This document shows positions 8,376 to 36,629 of a stretch of 64,000 bases of DNA, in pieces. The stretch's first letter is position 1; every line of letters begins with the position of its first letter. The translations under genes were made by a program, and so were the position numbers. The stretch comes from Branchiostoma floridae (Eukaryota; Chordata; Leptocardii; Amphioxiformes; Branchiostomatidae): contig NC_049983.1 of the NCBI RefSeq assembly GCF_000003815.2, positions 16,328,059-16,392,058 of the forward strand. The letters are read 5' to 3'. Below the pieces are notes generated by a model. The model did not search any database and was not told the origin of the DNA. It saw only the letters and a program-made list of their open reading frames with translations.

Positions 8376-11300
8376 TCAACGTGGGATGGCACAGATCTTA
8401 TGGGGATGGGGCGTTAGTGAGATGCGGAGTATTCCGTCGGTAGATACAGGAAGAGCGCCCTCTGGCAGCTTGAAGGTGAAGTTCTGCATCAGGCCGCAGA
8501 AGAGCAGAATCAGCTCCATCTTGGCGAGCTGCTCTCCAAGGCACACGCGCCGCCCTAGAAAGGAAACTACTGCATTAAGATATCTTATTATATTATGAAC
8601 GGTACGCAATATTTTTAAAGAGACAACAACAACATCAAAATAGGTTACCAGGCTAGTTTTGCTGTACATACCTCCTGAAAACGGCATGAAAGAATGCGGC
8701 TTGCCGATGACATGTCCTTCTCCGTCCAGGAACCTGTCGGGGTCAAACCGGTCCGGATCAGGCCAGTATGCCGGGTCCGTGTGAAGGGAGTACAGGTTCG
8801 TCAACACCTGAATTACAGAGGAACAAGACAGTAGATATCGCAGGAAAGGACAGTCAATGAGATGACTTCTTCTGGGACCTTTTACCCAACCTCCTGTGGG
8901 TGTCCCCGACGCACGAATTTTCGTATGGTCACCTACATACATTTCCAGTTCAGTTTGTCCATTAATTTTTTCCACAACACAGGGTCTCTCCTTAGTGGTG
9001 CTTCCCAATTCCACAGAGAAACGGAAACAAATGAAGCAAAAGGAAATGCATTACAAGTAATAGTTGGGTGCTAACATAGATGCACAATCTGTATTTGTGC
9101 CTTAAACAGCTGCCACACAATATTAATTGGCTGGCCATGGCTCCGATCTTCTCCAAAACACGGAATTATATAGTCGCAAGGTCAAAATTTGAGAAGGTAG
9201 ATAAGCGATGTTGTTTTAGTCTTTGAAGAAGTGGTCTGCGCCAGCTTAACCTACCTGTGTCCCCGCGGGAAGGTCGAACTGACCCAGTTTGACGTGCTGA
9301 GTCGTGGCGTGAGGAAGGCCCATTGGAACCGTGGTGCGGACCCGCTGGACCTCCATCACAGTCGCCTCTGTGTAGGGCAGCTGGGCACGGTGGGACAGGG
9401 AAGGCACGGTGTCTCCAATTACGTCATCAAGCTCCTGTTGTACCTGAGTGTGTTTGGGGGGGGGGGGGGTGTATGTGCGATGAGCAGTTGTGATTTTGAA
9501 GTCAACATGACGTAACCGTCTCACCTTGGACTTTTGATCAATATTGCTGCCGTCAGGTGTCCATAAGGTCACGTGTCAATTGATCATTTGGTCGCTCCTG
9601 AAGAAGGCTGAAGGGTAACTTTGAAAATTCTATGACTTTTCCTCATCAATTTGGTGTCAGAACGAATTGTAGCTAAATATAATCATTTCTGACACAACAT
9701 GATATTTAAAATTCACAGAGATAGCTATTTATACCGACAACAATTCTATATTTCTATAAACGTTTGTGACAATCGTACCTTCTCCTGAATGTCCGGGTTC
9801 AGAGCCATGTACAGAAGGGCCCACCGGAGGGTAGTGGAGACTGTGTCGGTGCCGGCCACGAAGAGATTTTGCGCCATGTACATCACATTCTCCTCAGTCA
9901 GGTCATTCACCCTGCCCTGCTGCTCAACCTCGATCAGTGCGAAGTCGAGAAAGTCTCGCGGATTCTCGCGATCCAGATCCCGGCGATGGCGAGATATCTC
10001 CTCCCACAGAAACGCATCGATCTTCTCAGCGTACAGGATTGTGTTATTGACAACCTTGTTCACTGCGGAGCGAGATATAGTAGTAATCGGTAAACATATA
10101 ACGACACTTTGCCGAAAGCGGGACGCGGTTTGGTTAATAGTAGCTTTGTACAAGTAACCTTAGCTAGCAATGAAGACAAATTGATATATCATCCAAAACA
10201 GTTTAATACCTCAATTAAGTTCATCTATCTTTTCTGACAGTCATCTTTCCATGTTGCCACGATTGAATCACTCCACTTCTTACAATACATGGGACGCTTT
10301 ATTCTGAAATGCCTGCGAAGAAAATAATACTAAACAAACCAATAGCACAGCAATGTGAGAGAAGCGATGCTCTGGATGAGTCAACCGAAAAATTTCCCAA
10401 CTATTTTAATGACGGTTTGGTATTTTTTTTATACTTTCATTTATCAACGTATATAAACTAAGCTAAGGTTTGCGTCAGGAAGTATATCCAACATTCATCC
10501 ATATTTTCTTCACAATTAGGGCACGGTGTTGAGTACGGTATTATCACGGTTGTTACTTTGAGAAAAAGAAGTACAATACGTCGGCTCGCGGTTTTCACCG
10601 GCGGTGCATGCGCGAGGACATTGCTGAAGCCCCTAACTTGTGCTTGTAAACCTACCTTGTATACACCATGTAGTACATGTACGTATACACAGACGTGCCT
10701 TGTCAAAATGTACATGTTTTACGTCTCAGGGGCCTTCAATTTTGACACATTACCTATAATGCACCACACTGTGTAAGCGCAGTTCAATCTGCGAACTGGC
10801 TTATTCTTACCTCCGGGAACGAATCGCAGGAAGGGGAAGACACTGATGAGCTGCCCAGACAGGGACGCCAGGTTTATCTGTACCGACACGATCGCTTCAG
10901 CTATTTCCATGAACCTCTCGTCCCCGTACGCGAAGCGATGTCCAAACGCCATGGCGCAGATGACGTTGGCGATCGTCACTTGCAGATCACGTTCGGCGTC
11001 GAAAGGTCTTCCCTGGTACGCTGCAAACTAAACCGGACAAGGGTATTAAAGTGACACTCAATCATCTAAGTGTATCTCCCCTTATCCTAAGACTAAGTTA
11101 CGACTTTCTGATATAAACGATTCGCTGATTCTTCATTTCTTGTTGAGTTGTGGCCAATTCAATGTTGGATGTACAAACTCTGAAGGGAGGACTTATTTTT
11201 TATTTACCTTTGTTTATCATTAATCTGCCTATTTTTGCTCATGTCAACAAATACTAGATATTTGTCTAAGTTTTGTTATCTGTAACGTTATTTACGTTTG

Positions 11301-15940: not shown

Positions 15941-17868
15941 ATGGCGACGTGCGCTGGAAAAGGTGAGAGTGAAGGAAAAGTGAAGAAACTCACCTGTCAG
16001 TTCTGTGAGTACAAAGCAGTTAACTCATCGCGCTTAGAAGAGCACGTCAGGACCCACACCGGTGAGAGACCATTCCAGTGCCAACAGTGCGAGTACTCTG
16101 CTAGACAGAAGCGGGTCCTGGAGATGCACATCAGGATAAAACACACCGGTGAGAGACCGCACCACTGCAAACACTGTGACTTCTCAGCGGCAAGCAGTAC
16201 TGTCCTCGCTAATCACGTTATGGCGACTGACACCGGTGAGAGGCCATTTCAGTGCGCTCTTTGTGACTTTTCGTCGATCTACAAGGCCTCCCTCGGGCGC
16301 CACATCATGGCCAAACACAGCAGCCACAGGCCGCACAAATGCACGGAGTGCGACTTTGCTACGGTGGGGAAAAGTATCTTGAAACGCCACATGGCAAATC
16401 ACGCCGATGTCAAACCATATCCCTGCGATCTTTGCGATTATTCCACCAACACGAACCATAGATTAAAACGGCACATGGCAACGCACACGGGCCAGAGGCC
16501 ACACAAGTGCGACTTCTGCGATTATTCCTCGGCAGTCAAGTCCTGTTTGAAACGCCACGTGCTGGCATTACACACGGGCGAGAAGACACAGAAGTGCGAC
16601 GTTTGTGATTACACCGCAGTCAGCAGGTACAGTTTGAAACAACACGCGGTCAAACACACCGGCGAGAAGCCGTACAAATGTGACACTTGCGACTACGCCA
16701 CAGCGGTGAAGTCAAGTCTTACTACGCACATGAAGAAACACACCGGGAAGAAACCTTACAAATGTGAGATCTGCGGTTATTCCGCGACACTATTGCAGTA
16801 TCTGAAAAACCACATGACCAACCACACCGGCGACAAACAGTACAAATGTGAGCTATGTGAATACGCTGCGCCAACGAAGAAGAGGTTGCAAGATCACATG
16901 GCCAAACACAGTACCGATAAACCGTACAAATGTGAACTTTGTGATTTTCGCACGACTTACAGGGTTAATTTGAAGCACCACATGGTGACACACACTGGTA
17001 ACAAACCTTATAAGTGTGACGCTTGCGATTTTTCTGCAGCGCACATGTCTAGAATGAAACGCCCGACATGGCCAAACACAGCGCGGCCGGAACACTGGAC
17101 AAGACTCACAAGTGTGACGTTTGCGATTATTCTACAATGTTCATGTATAGATTGAAACGCCACATCATGGCCAAACACACTCGTGAGAAGCCTTACAAAT
17201 GTGACGCTTGTGACTTTTCTACTGACCGAATAGAGAGGTTAGAGCGCCATATCCTTGCCACACACGCTGGTGAGAAACCGTTCAAATGTGAGGTTTGCGG
17301 GTATTCTACAAAAGCTAAAATAAACTTGAAACGGCACATGGCCAAACGCACTTGTGAGAGGCCTGACAAATGTGACTTTTTTTCTACTGAACGAACGGAG
17401 AAGTTAGAGCGTCATGTACACGCCGGTGAGAAACCGTTCAAATGTGAGGTTTGCGGGTATTTTACCAAAGCTAAAACAAACTTAAAACGGCACATGACCA
17501 CCCACTCAGATGAGAAACCGTACAGGTGCGAGGCGTGCGGTTTTTCTACAGCACTATTGGATACTTTGAAAAGGCACATGGCCACACATACCGGTGGGAA
17601 GCCACACAAATGCGACCTTTGCGACTATTCTACATCGTTTAAGCCAAATTTGAAACGACACATGGGTACCCATACCGGTAGAGATAAGCCATATAAATGT
17701 GAAATGTGCGATTATGCCGGAGCTGAAAAGACTACCTTAATAATAGCACACATAGCTGTGAAACACTCTGGTGTGAAACCATACAAATGTGGCGTTTGTG
17801 ACTACGCCACTGCAGTGAGATCTAATTGGAGACGGCACATGAAGAGACACACTGATGATAAACCTTAA
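15941..17868 (+). CDS. C2H2 zinc-finger protein with 22 fingers, frameshifted
   Basis: A continuous array of C2H2 fingers starts at the ATG at 15941, about 65 nt after a probable acceptor (TTTTTTTCAG). Frame one encodes 12 complete fingers and most of a 13th. Near 17060-17067 the expected CGCCACATG is CGCCCGACATG, so two extra bases shift the frame and the first frame stops at 17155. The array resumes in the other frame from 17068 for nine more fingers to the stop at 17866-17868. Fingers follow the pattern KCDxCDYSTxxxxxLKRHMxxHTGEKPY with TGEKP linkers, the mark of sequence-specific DNA-binding proteins. The finger starting DKCDFFSTERTEK lacks its second cysteine. No KRAB, SCAN or BTB domain is visible; there is only a short basic N-terminus (MATCAGKGESEGKVKK). 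It is a nuclear DNA-binding protein if expressed. The shift could be a sequencing error, a polymorphism or real decay. Confidence 0.85.
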
Positions 17869-20268: not shown

Positions 20269-23200
20269 TCATTTATATCCATCTCCATCACCTTTGACCT
20301 CTGACACTTTGGGGTCAGATGGGTCAAGATCACTGCTGTTGACATTGACTTTTGACCCCTCAGGGATTGGACTGCCATGGTCACTGCTGTTGACATTGAC
20401 TTTTGACCCCTCAGGGATTGGACTGCCATGGTCACTGCTGTTGGCATTGACTTTTGACCCCTCAGGGATTGGACTACCATGGTCATTGCTGTTGACATTG
20501 ACTTTTGACCCCTCAGGGATTGGACTACCATGGTCACTGCTGTTGACATTGACCTTTGACTCCTCAAGGAAACTGCCATGGTCACTGCTGTTGATATTGA
20601 CCTTTGACTCCTCAAGGAGACTGCCATGGTCACTGCTGTTGATATTGACTTTTGACCCCTCATGGATTGGATGGCTATGGTCAATGGGGTTGACATTGAC
20701 TTTTGACCCCTCATGGATTAAACTATCCTCATAACTGCTGTTGACAATGACTTTTGACCTTGTGGGGATGGGAATCCCATGATGACGGCTATTGTGGTAG
20801 TCCAGTGCATGCTTCTGTCTTCCCGAGTAGTCGCACTTGTCACACTTGAAGGGTTTCTCATCCGTGTGGATGCGTATGTGCACCTTCAGGTTCTGCACAT
20901 GTTTGAATCGCTGTCCGCAGTACTCACAGATGTACCTGGTCTCGCCGGTATGAACCACCTGATGCTTGGTCAGGTCGTACAGGTGTTCAAACCTGATGGT
21001 GCAGCCCTCCCAGGGGCAGGCTATGGGCAGGTGGTCCCTGTGCTGGGAGTAGTGCTTGTTCAGCTGTGGCCGGGTGGAGAAGGTTGCAGAACATGTCTGG
21101 CAGTAGCCTGTCCACCGGTACACTCTCTTGGACCGACACACGTGCTTGTCAAGCACTTTCTTCTTAGAGCAGGAGAACTTGCACTTGGGGCACCGGAGCA
21201 TCTTGTGGATTCGGAGGTGGTACATGACGGCTGTTGGGGTGGCAAATTCACGGTCACACATGTCACAACTGTATGTCGCAGTGTCGGACTGAGTGAAACC
21301 CTTCTCGTGATCCTGTACATGGGATTGATACAGGGATTTCGCTTTAAAGTCCTTGTTACAAGTTTTACAGGTGTATTTTTCATCCTGAGGAGGCAGGGTT
21401 GACTTCAATGGTGGAAATGGGATGGTGCTTTCTTTCCTTGGAATGTTTTCTTGAGTTTGAATGACATTTTCTTGCAGAACTTGGTGTGTGTTTTCCTTAT
21501 CATAAGACCAACCAGTTTTACAGGCGTACTTTTTATCCTGAGGAAGCAGGGTTGACTTCATTTGTAGAGATGGAATAGTGCTTTCTTTCTGATGACTGAG
21601 ACTTAAGTTTGCTGGGTGTGCACTGATTGTGCGTCCACTGTTTCCTGTCCCTGCTTTCATGAAGATGATGATTTTTTTCCTTGGAATGTTTTCTTGAGCT
21701 TGGAAGAAGTTTTCTTGCAGAACTTGAGGTGTGTTTTCCTTAGCACAAGACCAAGCTGTACTGTCTTCCTGATTTACAACAATCCCCTTTCCAGAATCTG
21801 TTTTCCTTTTCTTAGACAGGGTTGACTTCAATTGTGGAAATTGGATAGTGCTTTCTTTTGATGGAATGTTTTCTTGAGTTGTCGAGGTTTCTTGCAGAAC
21901 TTGGGGAATGTTTTCCTTAGCACAAGACCAAGCTGTACTGTCTTCCTGATTTACAACAATCCCCTTTCCAGAATCTGTTTTCCTTTTCTTAGACAGGGTT
22001 GACTTCAATTGTGGAAATTGGATAGTGCTTTCTTTTGCTGGCATGTTTTCTTGAGTTGTCAAGGTTTCTTGCAGAACTTGGGGAATGTTTTCCTGCATTA
22101 TGGACCCAGCAGTACTGCCTTCCAATTTGACATCAATTTCCTTCTCAGAATCTGTTTGCCTTTTCTTGGAATTAAAATAAGACTCGTGTCCTGTTTTCTT
22201 TTTCTTTGACCGACACACATGCTTGTCCATTACCCTCTTTTTTGAACAGACAAAATTACAGTTAAGACACCTGAGTCTGTTATGTATGCGCAGGTGGTAC
22301 AGGACGGAGGTTTGGGTGGCAAATTCCCGATCGCATGTGTTGCACCTGTACTTCGTGTCATCTACCTGGGTGAAACCGGGCTTCTTCAACTTAAAGTTCT
22401 TGTGATCTTCCATGTGGGAATAATACAGGGATCTTACTTTAAACACTTTACCACACGTTTCACAGCCAAACTTCTCATCTTGAACTGGCTGCTGGGTAAA
22501 GTTCTGCTGTAGAGTTGTTGGTTTGATGCTTTCTTGCAAAAGTGGTGTGGTCTTCCCCTGAGGTTTTGTAGTATTTTCTTGCCTGCTGTTTTCTCTCAGA
22601 AATGGGGTGATGTTTTCCTGTAAACTACATCCGGCAGTGTCCTCTTGTTTCACAACCGTCCACTTGTGTGTGCCTTCAAACCCCACACTTCTGGGCTGTT
22701 GTATGACAGACAGCGGCACAGCAAACCGAAAAGGGTCTATATCACTACCTCTCCTCCTAGACTCCTGTATCTGGGATGTTTGGATACCATCTTGGTCTAT
22801 TCTGGCAGCATTTGGCTCAACCAGTCCTACAGAAGGGCTATTGTTAACATAGTTATATGGGAAACTGCATTGTGAAGGATTATATGCAAAAGGATGATAC
22901 CATGGGCTTGATCCAGTCCAGTTTTGTTGGCTAAATGGTAGATTGTTTTGAACAGGAAACCCATACACGTGTTGGTGTCCTTGTGTCATCATTAAAGTCT
23001 CCCAGTGCCTTTGGTAGTAATCTNNNNNNNNNNNNNNNNNNNNNNNNNNNNNNNNNNNNNNNNNNNNNNNNNNNNNNNNNNNNNNNNNNNNNNNNNNNNN
23101 NNNNNNNNNNNNNNNNNNNNNNNCACTTTTGCAAGAAAGCATCAAACCAACAACTCTACAGCAGAACTTTACCCAGCAGCCAGTTCAAGATGAGAAGTTG

Positions 23201-34974: not shown

Positions 34975-35941
34975 TGATGGACATATGTAATATTTACATA
35001 GCTGTATGTCAAGATTTATCTTTCACATATCCACTCCGATTTGTGTTGTTAAATTTGGAAGGTACTGTACAAATGTATGTAAGGGTGCAGAATTAGACTG
35101 CAGGAAAAGTGATTGGTGGATTAATCTTGGGGCTACGGTCTTCTCAATCGTTGCACTATATTTAGAGATTGGGTGATATTTGCATTGCAGGTCCCCAAGC
35201 CCTTTAAAATGTGATGGAGTAGATCTCCTCTGCAACCTTTTGGCAATCAACAAATATGACCAAAGCTCTTTAGCGCTGTGACATGGGCTTCAGAAGAGAA
35301 TGTAGAAGCATTGTGAAAGGCTACTGCTAGTGTCACATAACCTTGCCAAACCATCTCAGCTGTAGTTTCCCAAAACAGTTTCCCAAATCTTGTTGCCCAT
35401 TGTAGTCACACCACAGTTTGGTCTAAACTCTGTCAATCTGGAGTCCAAAATTTGTAAGTGTTGGATATCATAAAGCATTGCTGGCTGACACTGACAGAGG
35501 CTTGGTGGCCTAGTGTTGGCCTAATGCCAATAGTAAACTGAGCGTGGGCCATTGGGACAAGTTTGGTCTCTCCCACTGCCAAATGGCAGTTGAAACCTTG
35601 CCAGGATTGTACTTAACTATCACTTGTGTGTGTTTCAACCATTTCTATATACAGAACATCTGTATTTTTAAGTGAGGAATGTCATACAGAAAAATGCTTT
35701 TTGCTGAACGTGTTTCTCTGCCCACCTTTTGTACATTTTTTACTTTGGGTACTGAAAAGTATTTTGTTAGATCCAGGTGACTGTCTTTTATATAGTTATC
35801 ACACTTGATGTATTTATATTATTATTGTTACCACTGACAATAGACCTACCCATTACACACTTGTTAGGGTTAACCCAGGGAAATCCACTGGAGAAATTGA
35901 AGAAAAAACAGTTGTCACCTTTTCTAGAAGTTTCCCTTAAT

Positions 35942-36275
35942 CTAAGGGCACAACCCGCTGTACGTGTAATTTGTCCGTACTTTTTTTAGGGAGGCCACGT
36001 CCGCCATGTATTTCTGAAAACATTCAGGCTGTATAGGGCACGTGCGTCGCCCGTACCAGCACGTACGGGGGGCGAATCCGCAGCCCAATGGCACACACGT
36101 TTTGCCTGCACGTTAGGTTCTATGGCGTGTCTGTGTGCTCCAAAATCCGTCGGATTCCCTACGACTTTATACAGAGGCGGTACTTACCACTTACGGATCC
36201 CAAAAGGTTACCCACGTTTTGGCACGTACATTGTAGACAGCACGTATTTGCACGTACGGTGGATTGTGCCCTTAG
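35942..36275. mobile_element. TIR element with CTAAGGGCACAA termini
   Basis: 334 bp with ends CTAAGGGCACAACCCGCTGT and, at the right, the inverse of CTAAGGGCACAATCCACCGT. The interior is rich in GTACGTGC/GCACGTAC palindromic words. The flanks TTAATC and TTTAATC are weakly similar. Confidence 0.82.
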
Positions 36276-36331
36276 CTTTAATCGACTCTGCCGTGTGTCT
36301 CACTCCTAACTCAAGGATTTTGATACTGCAA

Positions 36332-36629
36332 AACCAGTGAAACAACCAGAGGGGCGAGTAAGAACAGAAAGAAACAACACCCCGACTCCCGGGATTCGAA
36401 CCCGCGCCGAACCCGGGCAGCCGGATCACAAATCGAACGTGCAAACCGTTCGGCCAAATGGCTTAAGCCGTTAGGCGTCTTCGGTTTAGCAGTCCTTGAA
36501 CACCACTGTTACACTACTCCCCCTTTTCTTTTTTCAAGATTCGTCCTCGAATCTCCGAGATCGACATCCCTGTGTGGCACATACTAGCCTGTTGCTCACA
36601 GGGCCGGCGTGGGAACCAGTGAAACAACC
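36332..36629 (-). mobile_element. Remnant of a miniature LTR (TRIM-like) element
   Basis: Read on the minus strand. A 16-bp direct repeat GGTTGTTTCACTGGTT (36614-36629 and 36332-36347) brackets the unit. After the first copy comes TGGTTCCCACGCC, which starts TGG like a primer-binding site. About 100 bp follow, ending in GATTCGAGGACGAATCTT (like the end of Ty3/Gypsy internal regions) and a purine tract AAAAGAAAAGGGGGAG (plus-strand 36517-36532). Then comes a 176-bp LTR-like segment (36338-36513) that begins TGTAACA and ends TGTTTCA, near-perfect terminal inverted repeats. Only the last few bases of a 5' LTR remain. Alternatively it is a retroposed SINE with a 16-bp target duplication. Confidence 0.6.
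36380..36466 (-). other. tRNA-like sequence (A and B boxes) inside the LTR-like segment
   Basis: The minus strand carries an A box TGGCCGAACGG (plus 36446-36456), a B box GGTTCGAATCC (36392-36402) and an extended variable arm (GCCCGGGTTCGGC), as in class II tRNAs. The acceptor ends do not pair well, so it is probably not an expressed tRNA. Confidence 0.65.

Follow-up and report, generated by a model that had tools for sequence, protein, structure and literature searches.

Does the segment at positions 36332–36629 of the window, by which we mean the whole 64,000-nt stretch of Branchiostoma floridae DNA analysed here, represent a miniature LTR element with a tRNA-like promoter for RNA polymerase III (Pol III) inside its LTR, and how would such an element be copied? 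Our analysis points to a defective TRIM of the Helenus type, whose RNA would be made by Pol III, whose primer would be tRNA-Glu(CTC), and which would use the enzymes of a Gypsy element in trans. We put the probability of this joint explanation at roughly 0.8.

The original prediction described a 176-bp segment with TGTAACA and TGTTTCA ends and a purine tract directly before it. Both are present, on the minus strand. Read along that strand, the segment consists of 10 bp of an LTR end, an internal part of 106 bp, an LTR of 176 bp and a further 6 nt:

36620–36629, minus strand: final 10 bp of the lost 5′ LTR.
36514–36619, minus strand: internal part, 106 bp, with the primer-binding site (PBS) and the polypurine tract (PPT).
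36604–36618, minus strand: PBS TGGTTCCCACGCCGG, a 15-nt complement of the 3′ end of tRNA-Glu(CTC) with CCA, identified from a tRNA-Glu gene (L092) and captured tRNA copies.
36514–36534, minus strand: PPT AAAAAAGAAAAGGGGGAGTAG, abutting the LTR; the copy at locus L027 starts in the same tract.
36338–36513, minus strand: 3′ LTR, 176 bp, TGTAACA...TGTTTCA, matching the LTRs of 26 genome copies that have two or three of them.
36332–36337, minus strand: 6 nt past the 3′ LTR, CTGGTT, identical to the start of the internal part.

An exact 16-bp direct repeat was found at 36332–36347 and 36614–36629. It had been regarded as either the residual end of a 5′ LTR or the target duplication of a SINE. Because of the layout given above, the repeat is an LTR end plus 6 nt of the PBS start, so the former interpretation holds in a slightly extended form and the latter falls away. 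The window copy possesses one full LTR only and carries no target site duplication (TSD). Beside it, at 35939–36278, lies a MITE-like element whose 31-nt inverted ends are 84% complementary, and elsewhere the window contains two C2H2 zinc-finger ORFs (15941–17868 and 20269–23145) and a P450 piece (8376–9014).

When the genome that holds the window (513 Mb, 431 contigs) was searched, with the best 40 of 1086 candidates scored, at least 85 matches to the stretch were found at 40 or more sites. The near-full-length matches are 97–99% identical to the window element, and this repetition indicates that the element is not a chance arrangement. We fetched 30 loci, which correspond to 28 sites (L007 is the same as L028, and L008 the same as L022). 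The window copy and L027, neither of which has a full 5′ LTR, were set aside, leaving 26 sites; the L027 copy begins inside the PPT, with no LTR at that end. Two LTRs were present at 22 of the 26 sites, in elements of 455–463 bp, and three LTRs at the other four (L007, L008, L014 and L019; 737–795 bp). The full unit is gene-less, about 458 bp long, and comprises an LTR of 176 or 177 bp, an internal part of about 104–106 bp and a second LTR. An exact 4-bp TSD was found at 25 of these sites, while the remaining element (L009) has both LTRs and no TSD. The first and last LTRs were identical at 14 of the 26, so some copies are young, the 26 being the copies most like the window rather than a random draw, a selection that favours youth. 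The three-LTR copies each contain two internal parts, with a single 4-bp TSD around the whole; these tandems may have been inserted whole or formed by later exchange.

Further searches with two diverged relatives, in which the best 40 of 711 and the best 40 of 752 candidates were scored, added at least 60 loci. They include an older group, from which ten two-LTR copies (about 300–450 bp) were examined, and another group consisting mostly of single LTRs. Judged from these sequences, the family of the window element is part of a larger, older group which still has nearly identical copies.

Full-length two-LTR copies with a PBS and target duplications, which the original prediction had proposed as its check, thus occur in this genome. 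Copies with SINE tails ending at the tRNA-like part, named there as the contrary case, were not observed: at 25 of the 26 two-ended sites the element stops exactly at LTR ends, with the 4-bp duplications on either side. The structure, the TSD, the PBS and the PPT can be read directly from these copies, and together with the two-LTR relatives they support the predicted miniature LTR element with a tRNA-like LTR.

The genome also retains traces of the primer. A pattern for tRNA-Glu (GGTTCGANTCCCGGCGTGGGA) gave six genome matches, and its reversed control gave none. For three of them (L091, L092 and L093) ARAGORN reported tRNA-Glu(ctc). In L092 the acceptor stem pairs, CCA is absent and a T-run lies downstream, which makes it likely to be a genuine tRNA-Glu(CTC) gene; its 3′ end plus CCA complements the PBS across 15 nt. 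The other five matches are tRNA-Glu copies adjoining LTR ends and reversed relative to the LTR, two of them in the TRIM group (L095, which is partial, and L100) and three in a Gypsy family (L097, L098 and L099). Two more tRNA-Glu copies, L014 and L075, were found among 90 loci fetched. In total, a tRNA-Glu copy stands beside an LTR at seven sites, four in the TRIM group and three in the Gypsy family. The copies at the PBS or just past the LTR measure about 65–75 nt in L014, L075 and L100, while the one in L095 is about 35 nt long. L014 carries its tRNA copy inside the element, exactly at the PBS and with CCA, and ARAGORN identified this copy as tRNA-Glu(ctc). A 34-nt match to tRNA-Glu (88%) was also seen at one further place (L034 and L053).

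The reversed orientation beside the LTR is what copying of the primer into DNA would produce. Reverse transcription usually halts at m1A58 of the primer, as described for HIV-1 in PMC13191261; because this is the usual stop, the captured tRNA copies would be products of read-through. Integrase sequence directly adjoins the tRNA-Glu copy in L097, suggesting an internal deletion with primer read-through. As far as sequence can tell, the captured copies are direct evidence of tRNA-primed reverse transcription, and, on the basis of the tRNA gene L092 and the seven sites, the TRIM primer is assigned as tRNA-Glu(CTC).

The Gypsy family that shares this primer has the LTR start TGTAACGGCC. Its LTR is about 510 bp long and contains AATAAA, and the first 21 bases of the LTR have 40 exact matches in the genome. 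The integrase piece in L097 matches Pfam rve. The PBS of the family corresponds to tRNA-Glu, with a one-nt spacer as in the TRIM. Its TSD is CTGC/CTGC at the sole copy that is checkable at both ends as a single element; the 3′ flank of one other copy is masked, and the outer flanks of one cluster (C10) do not match. When the PPT and LTR start of the TRIM and the Gypsy family were compared (18 nt aligned), 0 of 2000 shuffles were as good, at places which tend to resemble each other even between unrelated elements. No significant similarity remained past the PBS, where 951 of 2000 shuffles did as well, and the TRIM LTR was not matched by those end pieces of the Gypsy LTR that were compared. A pattern for other elements with the same PPT and a TGTRACA start had no genome match, being too strict for the Gypsy start TGTAACG.

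Two of the 40 TRIM sites lay within 1 kb of one of the 40 exact Gypsy LTR starts, against about 0.006 expected, and what follows is an inference from two sites. At the first (L101), a Gypsy LTR and PBS are followed by TRIM internal sequence and a TRIM LTR, without a TSD. It may stem from strand transfer at the PBS or, since no TSD is present, from ordinary recombination of two genomic copies at the PBS that they have in common. At the second (L102), an inverted TRIM with 3 bases missing at one end stands end to end between Gypsy LTRs. The Gypsy parts are a PPT with an LTR apparently lacking its last few bases, and another LTR lacking its first 8 bases. From its sequence L102 has the look of free cDNAs joined at their ends, an event that would place the TRIM and the Gypsy element in one nucleus at one time. 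The common primer, the resemblance at the PPT and LTR start, and the two TRIM–Gypsy joints, which are visible in the genome sequence itself, make the TGTAACGGCC family, the sole Gypsy family compared, the best candidate for the partner.

The tRNA-like part of the LTR was originally described as a class II tRNA-like sequence with good A and B boxes. Our analysis identified the following features:

36446–36456, minus strand: box A-like motif TGGCCGAACGG at LTR position 58, by the Helenus box motifs given in PMC10886601.
36392–36402, minus strand: box B-like motif GGTTCGAATCC at LTR position 112.
36384–36469, minus strand: tRNA-like stretch, with a sub-threshold Rfam tRNA-Sec match only (14.3 bits; gathering score 47).
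36460–36469, minus strand: palindrome GGCTTAAGCC immediately upstream of box A, followed here by ATTT and in some copies by TTTT.

The starts of the two box-like motifs are 54 bp apart in the LTR. ARAGORN found no tRNA in the 64,000-nt window or in the segment 36332–36629, and Rfam gave no match at gathering level anywhere in the window. The motifs of the original description are present, at LTR positions 58 and 112, while by these tools its class II tRNA likeness is weak. Among 91 distinct LTR copies filtered by box B, ARAGORN called a tRNA in seven (four Thr(TGT), two Ile and one undetermined), and the relation to a tRNA is somewhat clearer in the diverged relatives than in the window copy. 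The motif GGTT[CT][GA]A occurs somewhere in the LTR of 42 of 47 representatives. Raised conservation of box A and box B, looked for as a Helenus trait, was not observed: among 47 representatives the boxes take ranks 63 and 95 of 165 windows, and with 66 representatives ranks 72 and 96. Neutral decay, CpG loss and the repeated CGGGTTCGG obscure this comparison, which lends the boxes no support.

AATAAA/ATTAAA and TATAWA were found in none of the 26 young TRIM copies, and AATAAA/ATTAAA in none of ten diverged copies. TTTT is wholly absent from 16 of the 26 young copies, and in the other ten it always lies at LTR position 55, immediately before box A. This means that past box A no TTTT occurs until the equivalent spot in the next LTR. 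The complete absence of TTTT from the window unit had a probability of 0.005 in dinucleotide shuffles and 0.13 in plain shuffles. The distribution of TTTT fits a Pol III template, as a matter of compatibility and not of proof, and transcription of the TRIM by Pol III is likely from these sequence features.

Diverged families also carry a short stem before TTTT (GGCT/AGCC, GGGT/ACCC, AGCT/AGCT and others). In one stem register, 157 of 180 cells pair across 45 copies, where shuffles average 147 and none of 2000 is as good; three paired changes map to single branches of the tree, a number reached in 83 of 5000 null draws. The 45 copies remained from 91 distinct copies after omission of 26 unparsable, 7 cut young-family and 13 with other spacing. 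With three registers pooled, 170 of 200 pairs are standard; the shuffle mean is 0.78, and 1 of 2000 shuffles does as well. Folding of the hairpin is uneven: three copies have z values of −3.5, −3.8 and −5.2, and six have values of −0.4 to −1.7, the window copy and another young copy being among these six. Of the 10 diverged two-LTR elements, all 10 have TTTT after the hairpin in the 5′ LTR and 8 have it there in the 3′ LTR. The hairpin with its TTTT may mark an RNA end. In a stronger version, all TRIM RNA would be made by Pol III and would terminate in the 3′ LTR, at the hairpin and TTTT just ahead of box A, and the short stretch from the start site to TTTT would act as the R repeat. The frequent TTTT in diverged 3′ LTRs, its required place, its regular presence in their 5′ LTRs and the paired variation of the stem speak for this version, but the young copies that lack any TTTT argue against it, and we regard it as quite unlikely. 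Such an R repeat would parallel the 18 bp reported for Cassandra (as stated in PMC10886601).

The cycle that we propose would begin with recruitment of Pol III by the tRNA-like boxes of the 5′ LTR, giving TRIM RNA. The 3′ end of cellular tRNA-Glu(CTC) would anneal to the PBS and prime minus-strand DNA, and the plus strand would be primed from the PPT. A Ty3/Gypsy integrase would then insert the TRIM DNA with a 4-bp target duplication. Reverse transcriptase and integrase would be supplied in trans by a Gypsy element, for which the TGTAACGGCC family is the candidate. Here we infer the use of Pol III, the mobilisation in trans and the identity of the helper.

Two other readings of the element were weighed against this cycle. 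One would treat it as a canonical TRIM transcribed by Pol II, in which the tRNA-like part is the captured, functionless head of a SINE. The conservation of the two boxes, which does not exceed that of other LTR parts, and the failure of ARAGORN and Rfam to accept the tRNA-like part of the window copy as a tRNA are in line with it. However, the AATAAA/ATTAAA signals are missing from young and diverged copies alike, as is TATAWA from the young ones, and most representatives keep the GGTT[CT][GA]A motif somewhere in the LTR, so that Pol II transcription appears unlikely. The other reading, a SINE with the 16-bp repeat as its target duplication, could draw on the tRNA-like boxes and the short length, yet those 16 bp are an LTR end and internal start just as in the two-LTR copies, the 4-bp TSDs stand at LTR ends, and the element contains an internal PBS and PPT. 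A tRNA SINE differs in having its duplication directly around the tRNA-derived unit, without LTR, PBS or PPT, whereas the TRIM has all three. This reading is extremely improbable, and SINE identity was ruled out by the two-LTR copies with their 4-bp TSDs.

The origin of the window copy itself is a more balanced question. It looks like a dead-end cDNA that became attached to the chromosome without integrase, or like what remains of a tandem copy. An ordinary deletion within an older LTR-internal-LTR-internal-LTR tandem, rather than end-joining of cDNA, has in our estimate slightly less than an even chance of accounting for this copy alone. It agrees with the three-LTR copies seen at four of the 26 sites, and with a copy that begins 10 bp before an LTR end and ends 6 bp into the next internal part. 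Nothing decisive stands against it: a 22-base junction pattern at the 3′ end of the copy has one exact match genome-wide, which fits deletion and end-joining alike.

Turning back to the Helenus-type TRIM as a whole, the TGTAACGGCC Ty3/Gypsy family is like it in its tRNA-Glu primer, one-nt PBS spacer, PPT and LTR start, and 4-bp TSD (one copy), and unlike it in its LTR of about 510 bp with AATAAA and its integrase sequence. Cassandra, a TRIM of plants, is similar in that the LTR of a gene-less element bears a small-RNA sequence with a Pol III promoter. The LTR of Cassandra carries 5S rRNA sequence, whereas that of the amphioxus TRIM is tRNA-like, and no Rfam match to 5S rRNA, the trait of Cassandra and Ajax, was found around the element (E up to 10) or, at gathering level, across the window. 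In Cassandra, Pol III start and stop give an 18-bp repeat, according to PMC10886601.

An animal tRNA counterpart of Cassandra, which the original prediction considered notable, does exist, but was already published in 2024 as Helenus (TRIMp3), the name given by Kojima to TRIMs with a tRNA-like LTR (PMC10886601). Helenus is described there from six animal phyla including fishes, with 4-bp TSDs and suspected Gypsy helpers, the animal helper being inferred from PBS similarity and TSD length; its transcription by Pol III is called unproven, and tandem arrays are known for zebrafish LTR-11_DR (PMC10886601). The amphioxus element shares with Helenus a length below 1000 bp, tRNA-like box A and box B in the LTRs, a PBS, a PPT and a 4-bp TSD (PMC10886601), and the copies at the 26 sites have two LTRs, a short internal part and a whole length under 1000 bp. 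Table 1 of PMC10886601 lists no cephalochordate host, and its main text has no Branchiostoma, amphioxus or lancelet. In the literature since 2024, we found Helenus named only in that paper and in a meeting report (PMC12859917). The amphioxus TRIM is thus of a type already known, in a host that is new relative to the main text of PMC10886601. The class of TRIMs that carry a Pol III promoter is a recent one, and the lineage concerned here is probably close to vertebrates. The captured primer tRNAs and direct TRIM–Gypsy joints seen here are without a parallel in the main text of PMC10886601, and a single genome that keeps both names a primer and a helper that are directly testable.
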